DNA of 64,000 bases, taken from the NCBI RefSeq assembly GCF_003052265.1, contig NZ_QANS01000002.1:310001-374000 (forward strand), in the 5' to 3' direction. The notes below the pieces were generated by a model. That model was not told the origin of the DNA. It searched no databases and saw only the letters and a program-made list of their open reading frames with translations. The DNA is from Stenotrophobium rhamnosiphilum. GTDB taxonomy: Bacteria; Pseudomonadota; Gammaproteobacteria; Nevskiales; Nevskiaceae. Position numbers and translations under genes: made by a program. Positions 51,341 to 64,000 of this stretch are shown here, piece by piece. Position 1 is the stretch's first letter, and the number at the start of each line of letters is the position of its first letter.

Positions 51341-52083
51341 AGACTTTGCGCCCAGCCTTGCAGACGCTCGACAGCACTGTGTCGCGTGAGATCAACCAAC
51401 AGCGGCGTAATGGACACGCGCTTGTTGGCGACTGCATAAAAATCTGTGCCGGGGCCGCAATCTGCTTCTGCACCTGCAGCGCCAATCCAATAAATGGTGC
51501 GGCCGCGTGGGTCTTGTGACTTCGTCACATCGCCCGAGCGATGACGATTGCCGAGGCGCGTGACTTCAAAACCTTGCAGCTCTTCCCAAGGAACGTCTGG
51601 CACATTGATATTCAGAATGGTGTCGCCGGGCAAACGATCTTCTTGCAAACGATCAATCAAACGCAGCGTTACGCGCGCAGCGGTGTCGTAATGCTTGGGG
51701 TTCACTGCAACGGTAGAGATCGCGATGGCCGGAAAGCCGAGATGACGTCCTTCCATTGCTGCCGCGACAGTGCCGGAATACAACGTGTCGTCTCCGAGAT
51801 TCGCGCCAGCATTGATGCCAGACACAACCATCTCTGGCGCTTGATCCATCAGCGTCGTCAGCGCGAGATAAACGCAGTCGCTAGGTGTGCCATCAACGCA
51901 GATCACACCATCCGCATGCTTCTGCACACGCAGAGGATTCAGCAGCGTCAGCGAGTTGCTCGCGCCACTGCGGTTACGGTCAGGCGCCACGACGTCGACA
52001 GTGTGTCGCGTCAGCAAATGTTCTTGCAGGCAACGCAGGCCTGGAGCCGTGCAGCCATCGTCATTGGAAAGCAGGATGCGCAT
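51337..52083 (-). CDS. surE: 5'/3'-nucleotidase SurE
   Basis: A 248-residue metal-dependent phosphatase with the N-terminal metal site RILLSNDDGCTAPGL (Asp8-Asp9), Ser/Asn ligands in RSGASNSLTL and VSGINAGANLGDDTLYSGTVAAAMEG. It acts on nucleoside monophosphates and short polyphosphate. Confidence 0.96.
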   Translation of the reverse strand: MRILLSNDDGCTAPGLRCLQEHLLTRHTVDVVAPDRNRSGASNSLTLLNPLRVQKHADGVICVDGTPSDCVYLALTTLMDQAPEMVVSGINAGANLGDDTLYSGTVAAAMEGRHLGFPAIAISTVAVNPKHYDTAARVTLRLIDRLQEDRLPGDTILNINVPDVPWEELQGFEVTRLGNRHRSGDVTKSQDPRGRTIYWIGAAGAEADCGPGTDFYAVANKRVSITPLLVDLTRHSAVERLQGWAQSL

Positions 52084-52295
52084 CTAGATTCGAGTCGAAA
52101 AATCAGCGTCAGTTTAGCTTGATCACCGCTATCATTGGGTGACCGTTTTAATCATTGAAAGCGGCACTCGCAAAACCTCTTTGCCTAGTAGCGCTCGTTG
52201 GTTTTGATTAATTAATGCAATTATATGCAAATATTTATTAACATCAATGCTAAGGCGCCGAATTGGGCAGCTAACGCGGTCCAGCAGGACTCGGA

Positions 52296-52838
52296 ATGAC
52301 GAAGAAATTGCCGGACGATGGAGATGATGCGGAGCTATTCCGCGCGGCCATCGCGGGCGTCAAACCACTGGCTGTCAGCCATCACGCGCACGAACGCCCC
52401 AAACCTTCTGCTCGACCACTGCAAAAAGAAGCGGACGAGCGCGCCGTACTTGCTGAGCTACTGAACGATCCAGAACCAGACATGCTGGAGAGCGGCGACA
52501 CGCTGATCTATCAAGGCCCAGGTCTGCAAGACGGCGTATTCCGCAAACTGCGGCGCGGGCAATTTCACATGCAGTCAGAACTGGATCTGCACGGTTTCAA
52601 TCGCGCAGGAGCGAAGCTAGTACTGACGGAGTTTCTCGCGCATTGTCAGGATCGAGGCTATCGCAGTGTTCGGATCATTCATGGCAAGGGGAATGGATCA
52701 CCGAATAGTGGGCCGGTGATCAAAACGCATTTGGATAGTTGGTTGCGCAAGCGAAAGGATGTGTTGGCGTTTTGTTCGGCGCGGCCAGTGGATGGCGGCA
52801 CTGGGGCTGTTTACGTATTGCTACGGTCGACTAGCTAG
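52296..52838 (+). CDS. Smr domain DNA/RNA endonuclease-like protein
   Basis: A 180-residue protein: a charged N-terminal region and a C-terminal Smr domain (~95-178) with SELDLHGFNRAGAKLVL and RIIHGKGNGSP, the catalytic-type LDLHG and HGKG motifs. E. coli homologues of this size are SmrA and SmrB; SmrB cuts mRNA at collided ribosomes. Which one this matches I cannot tell. AGGA lies before the ATG. It is divergent from surE across a 212-bp AT-rich gap (~52190-52250). Confidence 0.88.
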   Translation: MTKKLPDDGDDAELFRAAIAGVKPLAVSHHAHERPKPSARPLQKEADERAVLAELLNDPEPDMLESGDTLIYQGPGLQDGVFRKLRRGQFHMQSELDLHGFNRAGAKLVLTEFLAHCQDRGYRSVRIIHGKGNGSPNSGPVIKTHLDSWLRKRKDVLAFCSARPVDGGTGAVYVLLRSTS

Positions 52839-52867
52839 CTGTCATTCCCGCGAAGGCGGGAATCCAG
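52839..52867. repeat. Small hairpin repeat CTGGAT-CCCGC...GCGGG-ATGACAG, copy 1
   Basis: The stem ATTCCCGC / GCGGGAAT with loop GAAG is bordered by CTGTC and CCAG. In reverse complement it matches the hairpin at 63337-63365. It starts right after the Smr stop codon and could end that transcript. The type is widespread in bacterial genomes. Confidence 0.75.
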
Positions 52868-52882
52868 TTCTGGCTTTTTACG

Positions 52883-53421
52883 CGCTGCGCGAGGCTACTG
52901 CCTGTACTGATTGAGACGGCGTGTTCCGCACTGTGGTGCGGGTTACTTTCTTTGGCGCAAAGAAAGTAACCAAAGAAACATCACCAGCCCACTTTTACGG
53001 TGTTTGGGAATGGGGCTGATACGTTTGCAGCATTAACTCTTAATGCAAGAAACAGGTAACCGCTTCAGCATTTAGTCTTAGCAATCGCGGCAGCTCGGCT
53101 CATTCGATACAACACTTCAGGATCTTGCTGTAACTCTCAAAGCAAGATCCCTCACTGCGTTCGGGATGACAATCCTTAGTTGGTTGCCGCTTATAACGAA
53201 TGAGCCGCGCGAATTCATCGTTCGCACAAATGCTGAAGCGGTTACCCGTTTCTCACATCGAGAAATTGAATGGCGAACGTATCAACCCCAATCCTATTAA
53301 AGACACAAGTGGATTGAGGTGCTTTCTTTGGTTACTTTCTTTGCACCAGCAAAGAAAGTAACCCGCACCACAGTGCGGAACACGCCGTCTCAATCAGAAC
53401 AGGTAGTAGCCCGCGAAGCGC
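52883..53421. mobile_element. Full-length palindromic element 1 (~540 bp, non-coding)
   Basis: The outer arms, 52883-52979 and 53323-53421, are inverted copies that start GGCTACTGCCTG and each contain a hairpin (GGTTACTTTCTTT / AAAGAAAGTAACC). Inside, further pairs nest in order: GGGGCTGATACGTT with AACGTATCAACCCC; 53048-53073 with 53228-53253 (AACCGCTTCAGCATTT core); CGGCTCATTCG with CGAATGAGCCG; and the central GGATCTTGCT with AGCAAGATCC. The whole unit is thus an imperfect palindrome. No coding frame is convincing. The end type recurs at 62602-63327. It lies between the Smr gene and the TetR gene; a mobile origin is inference. Confidence 0.75.
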
Positions 53422-53436
53422 TCACAAAACCCAAAA

Positions 53437-54069
53437 TCAGGGCAGCGAATCCGCACTCGAATGCCGCAACTCAAGCGCTAGCTGCTGCAAGACCTGATGG
53501 AACCGCTCCTCCCCCGCCATACGCGCAATCTGCAAACTGCCTTGTAGCGCAGCGCCGATCTCGACAGCTTTGTGGCGAGAGTCACCGATGAAATTGAGGC
53601 TACCTTGCGCACGCCCCGCGTCCAGCGTCTCAATCAACCACTCAAAAATTTCACGCATCAGCAAACGCGCTTCGTGACGCATGACTTCTGGGATTGCTTC
53701 GAACTCACTACTCAACACACCACCGGGACAAATCTTTGAACCTGCAACTGCGTATTCAACGTAAGTTTGAAAATGCGCGTTGAGACGATCCCAAGCGTTG
53801 CTCAAACGTGCGACTTCATCGGTCCAATCGCGAAAGCGTTGGCGATAGCGTTTAACCAAGGCAACGCCGAGATCTTCTTTACCTGGGAAGTGGTAATGAA
53901 TCGCAGCATTGCGGATGCCGAGCTGCACGGCGATGTGCTGATAGCTGAAGGCGTTGTAGCCGCGACGCTGCAGAAGTTCTTCTGCGGCGTTGAGAATTTC
54001 TTCGCGCGTGTCACGGCCTAGACGCATGCCGCGTTTACGAGCTTCAGTCGGTTTAAGAATATCCAGCAT
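53437..54069 (-). CDS. TetR-family transcriptional regulator
   Basis: A 210-residue repressor. The N-terminal HTH (TREEILNAAEELLQRRGYNAFSYQHIAVQLGIRNAAIHYHFPGKEDL) is classic TetR; the C-terminal helical domain (SSEFEAIPEVMRHEARLL...) is the ligand and dimer part. The target is unknown. A TATACT lies 7-12 bases before the ATG, so the transcript may have little or no leader. Its stop is 16 bp from palindromic element 1. It occupies the position where truD often lies. Confidence 0.9.
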   Translation of the reverse strand: MLDILKPTEARKRGMRLGRDTREEILNAAEELLQRRGYNAFSYQHIAVQLGIRNAAIHYHFPGKEDLGVALVKRYRQRFRDWTDEVARLSNAWDRLNAHFQTYVEYAVAGSKICPGGVLSSEFEAIPEVMRHEARLLMREIFEWLIETLDAGRAQGSLNFIGDSRHKAVEIGAALQGSLQIARMAGEERFHQVLQQLALELRHSSADSLP

Positions 54070-54096
54070 GATTGCAGTATACCCTCGCCACTCGCT

Positions 54097-54588
54097 CTAG
54101 CTAGCGGGGCCTAAAAGGACAACGGCGTGTGCCGCGATGCCTTCTTTACGGCCGATGTGGCCCATGCCTTCGTTGGTGGTGGCTTTAACGTTAACAACAT
54201 CAACGCTTACGCTCATATCCTGTGCCAACACAGCCTGCATCGCCTGCGTGTACGGCGACACGCGTGGCACCTGCGCAATCAGCGTTAGATCTGCATTGAC
54301 CACAGCAAAACCTTTGGCTTTGACGCGTGACATCACTTCTTTGAGCAATTCGCGGCTGTTGATGCCTTTGAACTGCGCATCGGTGTCTGGGAACAGTTTG
54401 CCAATATCACCGCCGCCAATCGCGCCAAGCAGTGCATCGCAGAGCGCGTGAATCATCGCGTCACCGTCAGAGTGAGCAATGATGCGGTACTTGCACTCAA
54501 TCCAGACGCCACCGAGCGTAACGCCCTCGCCTGCTTCGATGCGATGCGCATCAAAACCATGACCGATGCGAAGACTGAATGCGTTCAC
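54097..54588 (-). CDS. ispF: 2-C-methyl-D-erythritol 2,4-cyclodiphosphate synthase
   Basis: A 163-residue MEP-pathway enzyme with the metal-binding RIGHGFDAHRI (Asp and His), AHSDGDAMIHALCDALLGA and the C-terminal KATTNEGMGHIGRKEGIAAHAV. The start is the GTG that overlaps the ispD stop (GTGA). Confidence 0.97.
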   Translation of the reverse strand: MNAFSLRIGHGFDAHRIEAGEGVTLGGVWIECKYRIIAHSDGDAMIHALCDALLGAIGGGDIGKLFPDTDAQFKGINSRELLKEVMSRVKAKGFAVVNADLTLIAQVPRVSPYTQAMQAVLAQDMSVSVDVVNVKATTNEGMGHIGRKEGIAAHAVVLLGPAS

Positions 54589-55295
54589 GGTTGCTGCTCC
54601 TGTCGCGCCAGCCAGAATTCGGCAACGGCGAGGTCTTCTGCGTAGGTGACTTTGATGTTGCTGTCGCGACCGCGAACGAGACGCGGCGTATAGCCGGCAC
54701 GTTCCATCGCACTAGCTTCGTCGGTCACTTCAAGGCCGCGCTCGGCGCATTCCTTAAGGGAACTCATCAGCAAATCGAGTCTGAAAATCTGTGGCGTTTG
54801 TGCACGCCAGATAAATTCACGATCAACCGTCGAACTGACTTTGCCTTGTTTGGATTTTTTCAGCGTGTCGGTCACTGGCAATGCGAGCAGGCCGCCGTGT
54901 TCGTCATCGGCTTCTTCACGCAGGCGTTCGATATCCGCCCACTCCACGCAAGGACGTGCAGCATCGTGAACCATCACGAAAACTTCTTCGAAACCTTGCG
55001 TACGCGCAGCAACAGCTTCCAGTCCTGCGAGCACAGAATCAGCACGCGCAACACCACCATGCGTCGTCACGATTTTGGGATGGCGTGCAATCGGTAGCTT
55101 GGAATATTCCTGATCGTTCTTGGCCAGTACCAGCACCACGCCGTCGATATGATCATGATCAAGAAACGACGCAAGGCTCCATTCCAAAATCGTGCGGCCA
55201 CGCAGCGGCAGATATTGCTTGGGGCGATTAAGGCCCATGCGCGTGCCGCCGCCAGCAGCAGGAATGACGGCCCAATAACGAGGAGTTTGATTCAC
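54585..55295 (-). CDS. ispD: 2-C-methyl-D-erythritol 4-phosphate cytidylyltransferase
   Basis: A 236-residue enzyme with the nucleotide-binding N-terminus AVIPAAGGGTRMGLNRPKQYLPL, VHDAARPCVEWADI, and TDEASAMERAGYTPRLVRG. It starts at GTG. It is coupled to ispF and follows ftsB by 18 bp, as in other gammaproteobacteria. Confidence 0.97.
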   Translation of the reverse strand: MNQTPRYWAVIPAAGGGTRMGLNRPKQYLPLRGRTILEWSLASFLDHDHIDGVVLVLAKNDQEYSKLPIARHPKIVTTHGGVARADSVLAGLEAVAARTQGFEEVFVMVHDAARPCVEWADIERLREEADDEHGGLLALPVTDTLKKSKQGKVSSTVDREFIWRAQTPQIFRLDLLMSSLKECAERGLEVTDEASAMERAGYTPRLVRGRDSNIKVTYAEDLAVAEFWLARQEQQP

Positions 55296-55313
55296 AGTGT
55301 TGTCACGCCAACT

Positions 55314-55589
55314 CTAGGGTTCGACTACGAGGTAGAACGTTTCACCCTGGCGGATCATGCCCATCGTTGTACGCGCACGCGCTTCGATGGCTTGTACACC
55401 GGAATTGAGATCAGCGACTTCAGCATCCAGCGCAGCATTGCGCACTTTCAGCTTTTCATTTTCAGCGCGTTGCTCATCAACCTGCACTTGCAGGCGATGC
55501 GTGTGCGCGATACCGCCGTCAGCAACCCAGAGTCGCCACTGCAGCCCTGCCAGAAGCAGGGCTAACAGAATGACGGCGAATCTGGGCAT
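55314..55589 (-). CDS. ftsB: Cell division protein FtsB
   Basis: A 91-residue bitopic protein: TM helix (~4-22), then a periplasmic coiled coil (LQVQVDEQRAENEKLKVRNAALDAEVADL) and a C-terminal ARTTMGMIRQGETFYLVV typical of FtsB. It forms the FtsQLB complex of the divisome. It lies 9 bp after eno. Confidence 0.93.
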   Translation of the reverse strand: MPRFAVILLALLLAGLQWRLWVADGGIAHTHRLQVQVDEQRAENEKLKVRNAALDAEVADLNSGVQAIEARARTTMGMIRQGETFYLVVEP

Positions 55590-55598
55590 GACTTCGTC

Positions 55599-59480
<3,882 letters not shown>

Positions 59481-59539
59481 CTAGTTCGTAAGACGTTATT
59501 TTACGCTAGCAGCAGGGTGATCTGCACCCGTGTTGGTGC

Positions 59540-59581
59540 AAAAAATGTCGCCCGGCCGCATTTCAGTGCAGACCGGGCGAC
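59540..59581 (-). terminator. Rho-independent terminator of the acyl-CoA ligase gene
   Basis: On the minus strand the stem GTCGCCCGG / CCGGGCGAC with a 16-nt loop is followed by ATTTTTT. It starts 20 bp after the ligase stop codon. Confidence 0.85.
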
Positions 59582-59600
59582 GGCCCATCAACATTCGAGC

Positions 59601-61223
59601 TTAGGCTGTGGGCAGCTTGTAGCCTTTGAAATCCTCACGCAGCTTGGTTTTCAGCAGCTTTCCGGTGGCGGTGTGCGGCAACTGGTCGACGAAGGCGACG
59701 TCGTCCGGCATCCACCATTTGGCGATCTTGCCCTCGTAGAACTTGAGCAGTTCCTCGCGGGTCACTTCCTGCCCCGGCTTTTTGACGATGATCAGCAACG
59801 GGCGCTCATCCCATTTGGGGTGATAAATGCCGATGACGGCCGCCTCTTGTACCGCCGCATGGCCGATGGCGACGTTTTCCAGATCGATCGAGCTAATCCA
59901 CTCGCCGCCGGACTTGATCACGTCCTTGGAGCGGTCGGTAATCTGGATATAACCATCCGGGTCCAAGGTGGCGACGTCGCCCGTCGGGAACCAGCCGTCG
60001 ACCAGCGGGCTGTTCTCGCCACGGTAATAGTGGTCGATGATCCACGGGCCTTTGACCAGCAAGTCACCAAAAGCCTTGCCGTCACGCGGCAGTTCCTTTC
60101 CATCGGCGTCCACAATCTTGAGGTCAACACCGTAAATCACACGACCAGCCTTGGTGCGGATCGCGAACTGCTCGTCCGCGCTCAGTTTCAGATGCTTTTC
60201 TTTCAGCGTGTTGTAAGTGCCCAGCGGCGACATTTCGGTCATGCCCCAGCCTTGGCTGAGTTCGACGCCGTAGTCGTCCTTGAAGGCCTTCATCAGCGCA
60301 GGCGGCAATGCCGAACCACCGACGACCGAGCGCCAAGGCTTGCGGAATTTCAGGCCGTTCTTCTGAAGATGCTGCAACAGGCCGAGCCAGACCGTCGGCA
60401 CGCCGGCTGAGAAGGTCACGCTTTCCGATTCAAACAACTCATAGAGACTAGCGCCATCGAGGCCCGGGCCGGGGAACACCAGCTTGGCACCGACCATGGA
60501 ACAGGAATACGGCGAGCCCCAAGCATTGACGTGGAACATTGGCACCACCGGCAACACCACATCGCGCGAGGACAGGCACATCACGTCCGGCAGACAGGTG
60601 GCATAGGCATGCAGGATCGTCGAGCGATGGCTATAGAGCACGCCTTTGGGGTTGCCCGTCGTGCCGGATGTGTAGCACAGCACTGCGGCGGTGTTTTCAT
60701 CAAAGCTCGGCCATTCAAACGTGTCGTTCTCGGCTTCCAATAATTCTTCGTAGCAGATCGGCGTCACGCCCTTGATCGTGGGCATATGCGCACGATCCGT
60801 CAGTGCCACCCATCCCTTCACCGTTGGACAGTGAGGTGCGAGCGCTTCAACCAGCGGAGCAAAGGACAGATCGAAGAAGACGTATTTGTCTTCAGCGTGA
60901 TTAACGATCCAGCCGAGTTGCTCAGGGAACAAACGGGGATTCACCGTGTGCAAGATCGCGCCAGATCCGGAGACGGCGAAATACAGTTCGAAATGGCGAT
61001 AGCCGTTCCATGCCAACGTGGCCACGCGATCTTCCGACTTCACACCCAAACGCTTCAGCGCATTGGCCAGCTTGCGCGAGCGTGTATGGGCATCGCTGTA
61101 GGTATAGCGATGAATATCACCTTCACAACGACGCGATACAATTTCAACATCGCCGTGATAACGATCCGCATGTTTCACCAGCGACGAAATCATCAACGGC
61201 ATACTCATCATCTGACCCAGCAT
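59601..61223 (-). CDS. Fatty acid-CoA ligase (AMP-forming)
   Basis: A 540-residue ANL-superfamily enzyme activating medium- or long-chain fatty acids. Motifs: P-loop [16 protein letters not shown], the GWGMTEMSP segment, [16 protein letters not shown], hinge [15 protein letters not shown] and catalytic Lys in [14 protein letters not shown]. The start is set at the second ATG (61223), six bases after AGGAG; the first ATG at 61229 abuts AGGAG directly and could not be used well. It lies 33 bp after tilS on the same strand and between pyrG and tilS, breaking the usual cluster. Confidence 0.9.
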
Positions 61224-61256
61224 GTGCATCTCCTCTTATATTTTTGGTGCTACTTT

Positions 61257-62567
61257 TTAAACGTCGCTCCATGTAATGCGGAGCTTACGGCGTGCCAATT
61301 CTGCAGACCATTCCGGGCCAAGCCAGCGATCCGCTACAGAAACCAAACGTCCTTCTGAATAAATCAGCGGCGTTCTTAGACGCTGCCATTGTGGGACAGC
61401 AGCTTCTTGAAAAAGATTCTTCAGCGTTCGCGTGCGAGACGCCCCACCCGTTCGGAGAGTTTCGCCACCGCTTGGAAAGCGAATTGTTAAGAGATGCGGC
61501 AGCGGCTTGCGCGAACTGGACGTCAGCGCACCACAACCTTCTGGCAACTCAAGTCGACCTTTACCATCCCACTGCAACTCAACATCGTGCGGCGCCTTCA
61601 GTAACGGCGCCATAACATACAACTCATCGCGATAACGACGGAATTCATACGCACCACAGTTCAGCAGCGGCTGCGCATCAATACGTGCCTGTAAAACTTC
61701 GCGCTCCAAGCGTTGCAGCATCGCAGCAGCAGGCGCTTCGAAACCTCGCTCATTCAACCAATAGCGTATGGCATTCCGGCGACGTGCGGTACTTAAGTTT
61801 TGCAATGAAACAACACTGAGTGTTTCATTGCGTTGCAGCGTTTTAAGATCTTGCTGCGCCAACTCATCCAACAGTTCATTGGCCTCCGCGCAATGCTCTG
61901 CTGCGCGCGCAAGACTTACATCCGCTTGCGGCCAATGCTCACGCAAGCGCGGCAACACATCCTGACGCAGATACGAGCGCGCATAACGCGGTGAATAGTT
62001 ATGTGGATCTTCAATCCATTTCAGCTTCGCGCTTTTTGCGTAAGCCAGAATCTCTGTACGCGGCGTTTGCAACAAAGGACGCCACAATGTGCCCGGTGCA
62101 AATACAGTCACTGGTCGCATCGCTGCCAACCCGGCAACACCTGCGCCACGCAGCAAACGCAGCAGCACGGTTTCAGCCTGATCATCACGATGGTGCGCGG
62201 TCACCAACACATCACCCGCGCGCATCTTTGAACGCAAAGCGTTGTAACGCGCCATACGCGCTGAAGCCTCAGGGCCTGAGGCGTCGGTCGGATCGATTTT
62301 TACGTGCAGCACTTCACAAGGCACTTTCAGCTTTCGGCATTGCGCTTGGCATTGCTTGGCCCACGCGTCGGCGGTTTCTTGCAGGCCGTGATGGATGTGT
62401 AACGCGTGCAAACCTTTGATGCCTTGTGCGTGCAGCAAGTGCAGTAGCGCTGTGGAGTCCAAACCGCCGCTAAAGGCCAGCCATACGCGAGCGCCTTTGG
62501 GCGATGCGGGCATTGGTAGTAGCGATGGGATTTTGGCTGGAGATTTCACGGTTGAAGGGTAGCGCAT
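61257..62567 (-). CDS. tilS: tRNA(Ile)-lysidine synthetase
   Basis: A 436-residue enzyme modifying C34 of the AUA-reading tRNA. PP-loop VWLAFSGGLDSTALLHLL, then HIHHGLQ, VTAHHRDDQAETVLLRLLRGAG, RPLL and the DPHNYSPRYARSYLR segment are diagnostic, followed by the TilS C-terminal domains. The start may lie up to 18 codons later (ATG before PASPKGARV); no ribosome site decides. Confidence 0.93.
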   Translation of the reverse strand: MRYPSTVKSPAKIPSLLPMPASPKGARVWLAFSGGLDSTALLHLLHAQGIKGLHALHIHHGLQETADAWAKQCQAQCRKLKVPCEVLHVKIDPTDASGPEASARMARYNALRSKMRAGDVLVTAHHRDDQAETVLLRLLRGAGVAGLAAMRPVTVFAPGTLWRPLLQTPRTEILAYAKSAKLKWIEDPHNYSPRYARSYLRQDVLPRLREHWPQADVSLARAAEHCAEANELLDELAQQDLKTLQRNETLSVVSLQNLSTARRRNAIRYWLNERGFEAPAAAMLQRLEREVLQARIDAQPLLNCGAYEFRRYRDELYVMAPLLKAPHDVELQWDGKGRLELPEGCGALTSSSRKPLPHLLTIRFPSGGETLRTGGASRTRTLKNLFQEAAVPQWQRLRTPLIYSEGRLVSVADRWLGPEWSAELARRKLRITWSDV

Positions 62568-62601
62568 CAGGGCCGCATCCGCGCCTATTTCCTTTGTGGC
62601 C

Positions 62602-63327
62602 TTTGGCTACTGCCTGCTCCTCTTTGAAGTGACGTCTTTCGCGCTGTGGCGCGAGTGACTTTTCTTTGCGTGCCCAAAGAAAAGTAACCAAAAGAAAGGG
62701 CACCCTGCGACTACGCCGGAACAAAAAGCGTTCCGGTTCCCTGCGCTTCTCGCACTGACCGGGGTGCATGACAGGCCATCCATGGCCAGGCATGCACGCT
62801 CGGCTCCTGCCTCGCCCGACGCAAGCGTCGGCATTTAACCGATCAGTGCTGTGATGCTCGGCGTTGTCGAAGGGAACCCGGTAAAGCAAAGCCACTTGTA
62901 CATCTCATCAGCTAGCGAGCGAATGAGCCGTGATGTCGCTCTTCATGCGGACAAAAGTGCCGCCAACACTTTTACTGTTCTCAAGAATAGAAGCGGCCAT
63001 TGAGGCGATCCTCTCCACATTCACAGCAAGAGTCGCTTTGCTTTTGATGTCGGGCCCCTTCGGCAGCGCCGAGCATCGCAGGCTTGGCCGGTAATAGCCG
63101 CGCGAGTAGCGCGGGCGTAGGCAGGATGCCGAAGCGTGCGTGTCTGGACAGGGATGTCCTGTCACGCACCCCGGCCAAGACGAGAAGCACAGGGAACTCC
63201 CACGTCTTTTTGTGGGAGCGCGTACGCAGGGTGTGTTTTCTTTGGTTACTTTCTTTGCACAAGCAAAGAAAGTAACTCGCACGGCGTGCGAAACACGCCA
63301 CTTCAAAGAACAACAGGCACTAGCTCA
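62602..63327. mobile_element. Full-length palindromic element 2 (~725 bp, non-coding)
   Basis: Outer arms 62602-62698 and 63236-63327 are inverted copies bearing GGCTACTGCCTG, CTTTGAAGTG / CACTTCAAAG and the TTACTTTCTTTG / CAAAGAAAGTAA hairpin. Nested pairs run inward: CACCCTGCG with CGCAGGGTG; GTTCCCTGCGCTTCTCG with CGAGAAGCACAGGGAAC; CCGGGGTGCATGACAGG with CCTGTCACGCACCCCGG; GATGCTCGGCG (62853) with CGCCGAGCATC (63067); AAAGCAAAGC with GCTTTGCTTT; and AAAAGTG with CACTTTT at the exact centre (~62963). No frame looks coding. It separates accA from tilS. Confidence 0.75.
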
Positions 63328-63336
63328 AAAGACAAA

Positions 63337-63365
63337 CTGGATGCCCGCCTACGCGGGCATGACAG
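63337..63365. repeat. Small hairpin repeat CTGGAT-CCCGC...GCGGG-ATGACAG, copy 2
   Basis: The stem ATGCCCGC / GCGGGCAT with loop CTAC lies between CTGG and GACAG, 9 bp outside the right end of palindromic element 2. Copy 1 is at 52839, outside the end of element 1 in mirror orientation. Confidence 0.75.
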
Positions 63366-63367
63366 AC

Positions 63368-63398
63368 AAAAAAAGAAACGCGCCTTGCGGCGCGTTTC
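63368..63398 (-). terminator. Rho-independent terminator of accA
   Basis: On the minus strand a perfect 10-bp stem GAAACGCGCC / GGCGCGTTTC with loop GCAA is followed by seven T. It ends the accA transcript before palindromic element 2, so tilS needs its own promoter. Confidence 0.9.
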
Positions 63399-63441
63399 TC
63401 TCTTACTCAATCCCTCTCGCTACGGTGAGGCAGCAAATCAA

Positions 63442-64000
63442 TTAAGCCGACTTCGCCACCGGCGCCGTGTCATACGTGCCATAAGACATTAGTCGGTCAT
63501 AACGCGTTGCCAACAACTGCGTCATCGGTACATGTCGCAAACGTTCAAGATTGGTGATGAGCTTCTGCTTCAGCGTGCTCATCATCAATGGAACATCACG
63601 ATGCGCTCCGCCCAGTGGCTCAGGCACAATTTCGTCGATCAACTTAAGGCCAAACAAATCCTTGGCAGTGATCTTCATCGCCTCAGCAGCTTCTGATGCA
63701 CGACCTGCGTCTTTGAACAGAATCGAAGCGCAGCCTTCTGGCGAAATCACGGAATAGATGCTGTGTTGCAACATCATCACGTGGTCAGCCACGCCGATGG
63801 CGAGTGCACCACCAGAACCGCCCTCGCCGATCACCGTCGCCAAAACTGGCGTACGCAGATTCGACAGTTCGATCAAGTTGCGTGCAATGGCTTCTGATTG
63901 ATTGCGCTGTTCAGCGTCAATACCCGGATACGCGCCCGGCGTGTCGATCAAAGTGATGATCGGCAGATTGAATTTTTCTGCGAGCTGCATGATGCGCAGC
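63442..64000 (-). CDS. accA: Acetyl-CoA carboxylase carboxyltransferase alpha subunit, C-terminal part (5' truncated by window edge)
   Basis: The frame runs into the right edge of the window, with LRIM before [19 protein letters not shown], so the N-terminal part is missing. Visible: [43 protein letters not shown] and the [17 protein letters not shown] block of the carboxyltransferase active site. It makes malonyl-CoA together with AccD. The accA-tilS neighbourhood is normal apart from the palindromic element between them. Confidence 0.96.

Follow-up and report, generated by a model that had tools for sequence, protein, structure and literature searches.

ERIC, Correia (NEMIS) and YPAL-type repeats are dispersed, near-palindromic intergenic elements, regarded as MITE-like and about 100-170 bp in length. 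Eukaryotic foldback transposons have long inverted arms made up of short repeats and may or may not enclose genes. Integron gene cassettes hold single unrelated genes beside structure-defined attC DNA hairpins. For REP sequences, exact copies are reported to occur mainly within one strain or its close relatives (PMC2817692). Herein, we describe element 2, a member of a real, widespread family of hairpin-array palindromes that is non-coding, has two inverted arms per element and is found in many proteobacteria. We consider it modestly probable that this is a dispersed, DNA-level repeat family of hairpin arrays with terminator-like ends and a fragile centre, the scheme of renewal and spread set out below included.

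Architecture of element 2 and its relatives in the genome

Inverted-repeat comparison delimited element 2 as an imperfect 720-bp palindrome at positions 62605-63324 of the window, the whole stretch of 64,000 nucleotides that was analyzed. It is flanked by tilS (61257-62567, minus strand) and accA (63442 onward, minus strand; Pfam). Two hairpins make up the end module: H1, which is GC-rich with a short loop, and after it H2 (ACTTTCTTTG-loop-CAAAGAAAGT). Hairpins H3-H5 lie further along the arms. Element 2 comprises the following features:

62605-63324, no strand: element 2, full-length "type 2" palindromic hairpin-array element (13 full-length genome copies)
62605-62616, plus strand: left outer end, GGCTACTGCCTG, with its partner CAGGCACTAGC at 63314-63324
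62638-62655, plus strand: H1, GC-rich hairpin (terminator scan; the same hairpin covaries in alignment A2)
62655-62688, plus strand: H2, GTGACTTTTCTTTG-loop-CAAAGAAAAGTAAC hairpin of the end module
62718-62734, plus strand: H3 (left), GGAAC..GTTCC hairpin (columns 140-157 of alignment A1)
62764-62797, plus strand: H4 (left), GTGCATG..CATGCAC hairpin (columns 247/272 of A1, changes on both sides)
62816-62831, plus strand: H5 (left), CCGACGC..GCGTCGG hairpin
62953-62973, no strand: palindrome centre, AAAAGTG (62953-62959)/CACTTTT (62967-62973)
63136-63169, plus strand: H4', right-arm hairpin GTGCGTG..CACGCAC (columns 636/645 of A1, changes on both sides)
63197-63218, plus strand: H3', right-arm hairpin CTCCCAC..GTGGGAG (columns 685-707 of A1)
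63245-63276, minus strand: H2', right-end hairpin
63276-63292, minus strand: H1', right-end GC hairpin with a T-rich tail, terminator-like and inward-facing (terminator scan)

The inverted pairs 62606-62642/63288-63324 (84%), 62723-62800/63133-63210 (78%) and 62838-62874/63056-63092 (78%) span the whole element, and the arm-to-arm score of the interior was 137 against 18.4 ± 3.1 in 40 shuffles. These results confirmed the original prediction that element 2 is palindromic throughout. The centre that it had placed at AAAAGTG/CACTTTT, near 62963, was also recovered, with the geometric midpoint at about 62965. The 12 other full-length type 2 copies are 83-93% identical to element 2, and two of them have a different hairpin at the H3 (left) position. 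Open frames occur inside the elements, for example at window positions 62908-63306 and in overlapping frames (...VTFFACAKKVTKE...). Spurious protein calls from such frames may arise in automatic annotation and are probably common in proteobacterial databases.

The window contains a second element with the same end module, element 1, which lies between convergent Smr and TetR genes (Pfam):

52893-53411, no strand: element 1, "type 1", same end module as element 2, different interior
52925-52942, plus strand: left H1, terminator-like, inward-facing (terminator scan)
53120-53171, no strand: partial copy of another dispersed palindromic repeat, nested within 7 bp of the element 1 centre
53362-53379, minus strand: right H1', terminator-like, inward-facing (terminator scan)

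Elements 1 and 2 had been predicted to share their ends and one hairpin. The ends and the TTACTTTCTTTG/CAAAGAAAGTAA hairpin are indeed shared, but on its left side element 2 has this hairpin in a longer form, GTGACTTTTCTTTG...CAAAGAAAAGTAAC. The interiors of the two elements (L046 and L045) gave no blastn match to each other at E 0.01 and thus differ as proposed, but that of element 2 is not unique, being common to 13 copies. The type 1 interior is present in three full copies and in half copies, and a third interior type is present in three copies (L042-L044).

The genome comprises 21 contigs with 3.96 Mb in all, and the three IspD relatives identified come from Solimonas species (best segments 69-73%). 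Its end modules were located with R1, a covariance model built for this module. Among 49 complete modules, 38 form 19 inverted pairs, 9 are solitary halves and 2 lie at contig ends. With 38/49 modules paired and palindromic interiors in 18/19 of the pairs (z ≥ 5.9; L044 is the exception), the modules are neither mostly solitary nor mostly joined to non-palindromic interiors, the two outcomes that would have spoken against the original prediction. All nine solitary modules are single arms: in comparisons with full type 1 elements whose central repeat was masked, homology extended along one arm and ended at a distance of 35-142 bp from the centre that varied with the reference.

All three full type 1 elements have another dispersed palindromic repeat 3.5-6.5 bp from their centre, and this repeat (GTCATCCCGAACGCAGTGAGGGATCTTGC...; window 53120-53171; L047, L048, L049) also occurs alone between genes. 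In MBA4, a full copy is adjoined by an extra left half, whose homology runs on for about 20 bp beyond the centre. The elements appear to break, recombine and take up foreign DNA near their centres. A short insert common to three copies (L020, L028, L044) lies within the H2 loop, and three type 2 copies (L021, L024, L028) have a longer insert next to H3; therefore, insertion is not restricted to the centre.

Other repeats were seen around the elements. A third palindromic repeat (GTAGGCTGGGTT...AACCCAGCCTAC) adjoins half elements at the broken centre (L033, L034, L037, L048). Type 1 ends are often bordered directly on the outside by the repeat CCCTCTCCCCAT...ATGGGGAGAGGG (flanks of L032, L034-L038 and L041), and other element ends by GTCATTCCCGCG...CGGGAATCCAG, the two giving concentric palindrome layers. 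A partial extra end module adjoins one full type 2 element (L022 489-550; C15:462857-462920).

Covariation of the hairpins and of the long palindrome

Alignment A2 holds 56 of 75 candidate end modules (51 distinct) from this genome and its order, with 14 similar own-genome copies and 5 copies with inserts left out by hand. Of its 20 base pairs, 13 changed on both sides, and none of 500 shuffles reached the observed covariation on any of five measures. The paired cells comprised 923 Watson-Crick, 9 G-T, 17 A-C and 27 other combinations, with 15 of the A-C cells in one pair. Across the 13 type 2 copies, the local hairpins showed 2081/2301 Watson-Crick cells within copies against a permutation maximum of 2056 (0/5000), in a test where the structure was taken from the same alignment and the copies are related. 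The two arms of the palindrome behaved differently, with an identity of 0.693 within copies vs 0.692 between copies (p = 0.25). Covariation in type 2 is a property of the short local hairpins and not of the long palindrome.

The original prediction had allowed for selection on the palindromic shape itself, under which the whole palindrome is selected and interiors change by compensation across the long axis. Palindromic interiors in 18/19 own-genome pairs and in 23/26 pairs of other genomes (z ≥ 3.7; L084, L109 and L113 fail), also where the sequence differs between genera, are in line with this explanation. Arm-to-arm covariation, the signal it calls for, is absent from the 13 type 2 copies at the p value given above. 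Selection on shape is therefore unsupported copy by copy, and we regard it as highly improbable.

The arms were also compared between loci. For 27 loci, 25 from other genomes together with our own types 1 and 2, the mean arm score was 82.0 within loci vs 25.2 between loci (0/10,000 permutations). With one locus per genus (n = 21), the values were 92.9 and 23.7, respectively (0/10,000 permutations). Arms of one locus are far more alike than arms of different loci across genera, and palindromes therefore seem to be renewed per lineage. A better-matching arm was found in some other locus for 15/27 loci and, in the one-per-genus set, for 8/21, the own partner being best in the remaining 13/21; therefore, such renewal is not general. 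In many lineages, the arms seem to have been homogenized in the past and to have drifted since, an outcome that copying of a half back on itself would produce. The inverted duplication that had been proposed fits the between-genus result (0/10,000; own partner best in 13/21). Up to 15/29 loci share individual inner motifs (CGATGCTC, GCTTCTCG and others), vs at most 8 in 20 shuffles, and the interiors are therefore not wholly unrelated between loci. Among 20 Paraburkholderia copies, arm identity was lower within copies (0.693) than between copies (0.770), a comparison unnormalized for orientation and not used as a test; the lower value is taken to reflect copies lying in both orientations.

The preferred reading of a DNA-level hairpin-array family would place selection or correction on DNA hairpins, either as a cruciform or on a single-stranded lagging strand. 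A new family would arise when a half is copied back on itself to give a fresh palindrome, which could then spread by ectopic recombination and/or through an enzyme acting in trans on the end hairpins. No mobilizing enzyme was found for the family. With local hairpins kept, and the long palindrome not kept copy by copy yet alike within loci across genera, the birth, breakage and repair of palindromes in bacteria become testable.

Terminator-like ends and gene context

A large structured non-coding RNA would also give covarying hairpins, and the consensus fold is very stable (-318 kcal/mol). There is also a slight strand lean in type 2, where folding is marginally better on one strand in 10 of the 13 copies. 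Arm-to-arm transitions in these copies fell at 183 G-U-type vs 152 A-C-type positions. In the end module, G-T was rarer than A-C (9 vs 17 cells), without a G-U excess, and the G-U vs A-C tests pointed to no clear strand. A covariance-model search of window positions 52000-64000 gave no Rfam match inside elements 1 and 2 at E up to 1, its one match (0.55) lying outside them, and a promoter/terminator scan found no promoter-like site within either element. Together with terminator-like sites that face inward at both ends, these results leave the RNA explanation with hardly any credence from us. Conservation is read as acting at the DNA level, perhaps with a small RNA contribution.

The scan found a GC-rich hairpin with a T tract at both ends of both elements and one more site in element 2. 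At each end of elements 1 and 2, the strand that reads inward has H1 first and then the T-rich strand of H2, so that in element 2 H1 and the T-rich strand after it make up an inward-facing site resembling an intrinsic terminator. The numbers of such sites were not clearly above those in shuffles (3 vs 1.4 ± 1.3 and 2 vs 0.7 ± 0.7). The element ends are putative inward terminators, and we call them "terminator-like". H1 with the T-rich strand of H2 would stop transcription entering from either side, and the element may be a tolerated two-way terminator whose interior is kept silent.

Members of the family in this genome are mostly located in gaps between convergent genes. The 28 own-genome loci, 19 pairs plus 9 halves, have convergent flanking genes in 20 cases, tandem ones in 8 and divergent ones in none; orientation was taken from a crude ORF picker, and the locus of element 2 (L168) was set as tandem by Pfam, with TilS and AccA on the same strand. 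Background gene pairs called by the same ORF method were convergent in 7/88 cases in the flanks and 8/65 in the window. Against a stricter background of gaps of 50 bp or more (6/40), the convergent excess had p of about 3e-11. The bias was weaker in other genomes, at 13/29 resolved loci (32 examined, 3 unresolved; L074, L113 and L084 left out). If the ends do terminate transcription, the insulation of many convergent gene pairs would be explained.

Distribution, cargo and relation to known mobile elements

The end module was detected in 69 of the 274 genomes sampled from the class, this genome counted, and in 60/222 genera, a lower bound obtained with strict filters for a class inferred as Gammaproteobacteria in the GTDB sense, betaproteobacteria included. 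It was also present in 19 plasmid-collection records from Paraburkholderia, Burkholderia, Pasteurella, Aeromonas and Pseudoalteromonas. A 68-base query gave no match in 50,697 phage records (E ≤ 1e-3) or in an E. coli collection (E ≤ 0.01), and one exact pattern gave none in viral contigs. Searches of open-access literature gave no description of the element family, a repeat present in about a quarter of the sampled class genomes (69/274) and on betaproteobacterial replicons.

One replicon of P. caribensis MWAP64 carries 44 modules, in 20 pairs and 4 solitary copies. Nineteen of these pairs span 586-599 bp, and the exception, at 1975 bp, holds a Mutator-family IS in one arm. The 1.97-kb pairs (two in MBA4, one in MWAP64) were considered as cargo carriers and rejected on account of the IS they hold. 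The same IS, which we take to be of the IS256 type, lies in one arm at three loci (L209, L210, L211) of two Paraburkholderia caribensis strains, each time roughly 110-180 bp from an element end; its identity (Transposase_mut) comes from the MWAP64 protein, the one searched of three. Hairpin DNA may here have been an insertion target.

Eight of 32 inspected other-genome pairs were judged gene-bearing from open reading frames and composition; this is not a frequency because several long pairs were chosen for length and the gene calls are a matter of judgement. In 7/8, the gene midpoint is within 68 bp of the element centre. The contents include an ion channel (PF07885), a PEP-CTERM-like protein below the Pfam cut-off and a nucleotidyltransferase with a T5orf172-type fragment, the others having no family match. 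In one genome, the arms of gene-bearing L120 and gene-free L128 match at 89-92%. The original notion of different cargo between end modules suits some pairs of other genomes, but not elements 1 and 2, whose interiors are hairpin arms. Also among the 32 pairs, and not counted as gene-bearing, L122 (830-10750) consists of two end modules that face inward across 9.9 kb and enclose a 1777-aa two-partner-secretion-type protein.

Single genes may spread by way of the gene-bearing forms. Taken further, the elements would constitute a new class of mobile gene cassettes in Proteobacteria, with insulated, self-palindromic DNA hairpin arms recognized by a protein, a single gene at the centre and a second arm recopied from the first when broken; we think this unlikely.

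Comparisons with related genomes addressed the state of individual sites. P. phymatum lacks the element at three sites compared, and congeners of G062 and G124 lack the gene-bearing elements of these two genomes. In total, the element was missing from five orthologous sister-genome sites, at all of which divergence was too great for junctions to be seen; no target-site duplication was detected. Three further strains compared carry elements at orthologous sites. At three orthologous sites of MWAP64 and 852011, the elements are 89-95% identical and the flanks about 98-99%, while paralogous MWAP64 copies are 87 to 95% identical in the better orientation. The greater divergence of elements than of flanks is compatible with exchange between copies or with faster neutral change.

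These data bear on a non-autonomous, MITE-like transposon. In that explanation, the arms serve as terminal inverted repeats for a transposase whose gene lies elsewhere, and a passenger gene is sometimes carried along. We hold this explanation possible without leaning toward it. It accommodates the inverted ends, the passenger genes of some pairs, the many copies of near-unit length (586-599 bp in 19/20 MWAP64 pairs) and the five orthologous gaps without an element, whereas the palindrome runs over the whole length, beyond the ends alone, and neither a target duplication nor a related autonomous element was seen. No autonomous relative with the same ends was recognized in the 32 inspected pairs, where several centre proteins had no family match, and complete end-module lists covered only a few genomes. 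The sole transposase recognized inside pairs was that of the Mutator-family IS inserted into an arm at three loci.

Spread of a giant REP/BIME-type composite by RAYT, a Y1 tyrosine transposase, was also weighed and seems improbable. The genome does encode one Y1_Tnp protein (C16:92652-92933), but the whole-genome module scan placed no end module within several kb of it. Intergenic hairpin modules in inverted orientation and in many copies are as expected for REP/BIME, and preserved palindromes are reported for REPs too (PMC2817692). Spans of mostly 350-800 bp are not as expected, and the end module sequence is kept across Gamma- and Betaproteobacteria, unlike exact REP copies as reported there (PMC2817692).

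Our family of hairpin-array palindromes is not filed as a MITE, as REP/BIME or as an integron cassette; for MITE and REP/BIME, this is because defining features were absent or not shown. In the way it works, the family is like an interspersed palindromic repeat whose ends are terminator-like. It resembles REP/BIME in its multi-copy intergenic hairpins, inverted arrangement and retention of base-paired changes, but is far larger, can enclose genes, showed no RAYT link and has one end module recognizable in both Gamma- and Betaproteobacteria. With ERIC, Correia (NEMIS) and YPAL it shares a dispersed, near-palindromic, intergenic nature; in contrast to their size, its members mostly measure 350-800 bp, with two recognizable hairpin-array arms. 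Eukaryotic foldback transposons are alike in their long inverted arms of short repeats, with genes between or not, whereas this family is bacterial and has terminator-like ends and no known enzyme. Integron cassettes also place single unrelated genes beside DNA hairpins, but here the gene is flanked by two inverted arms.
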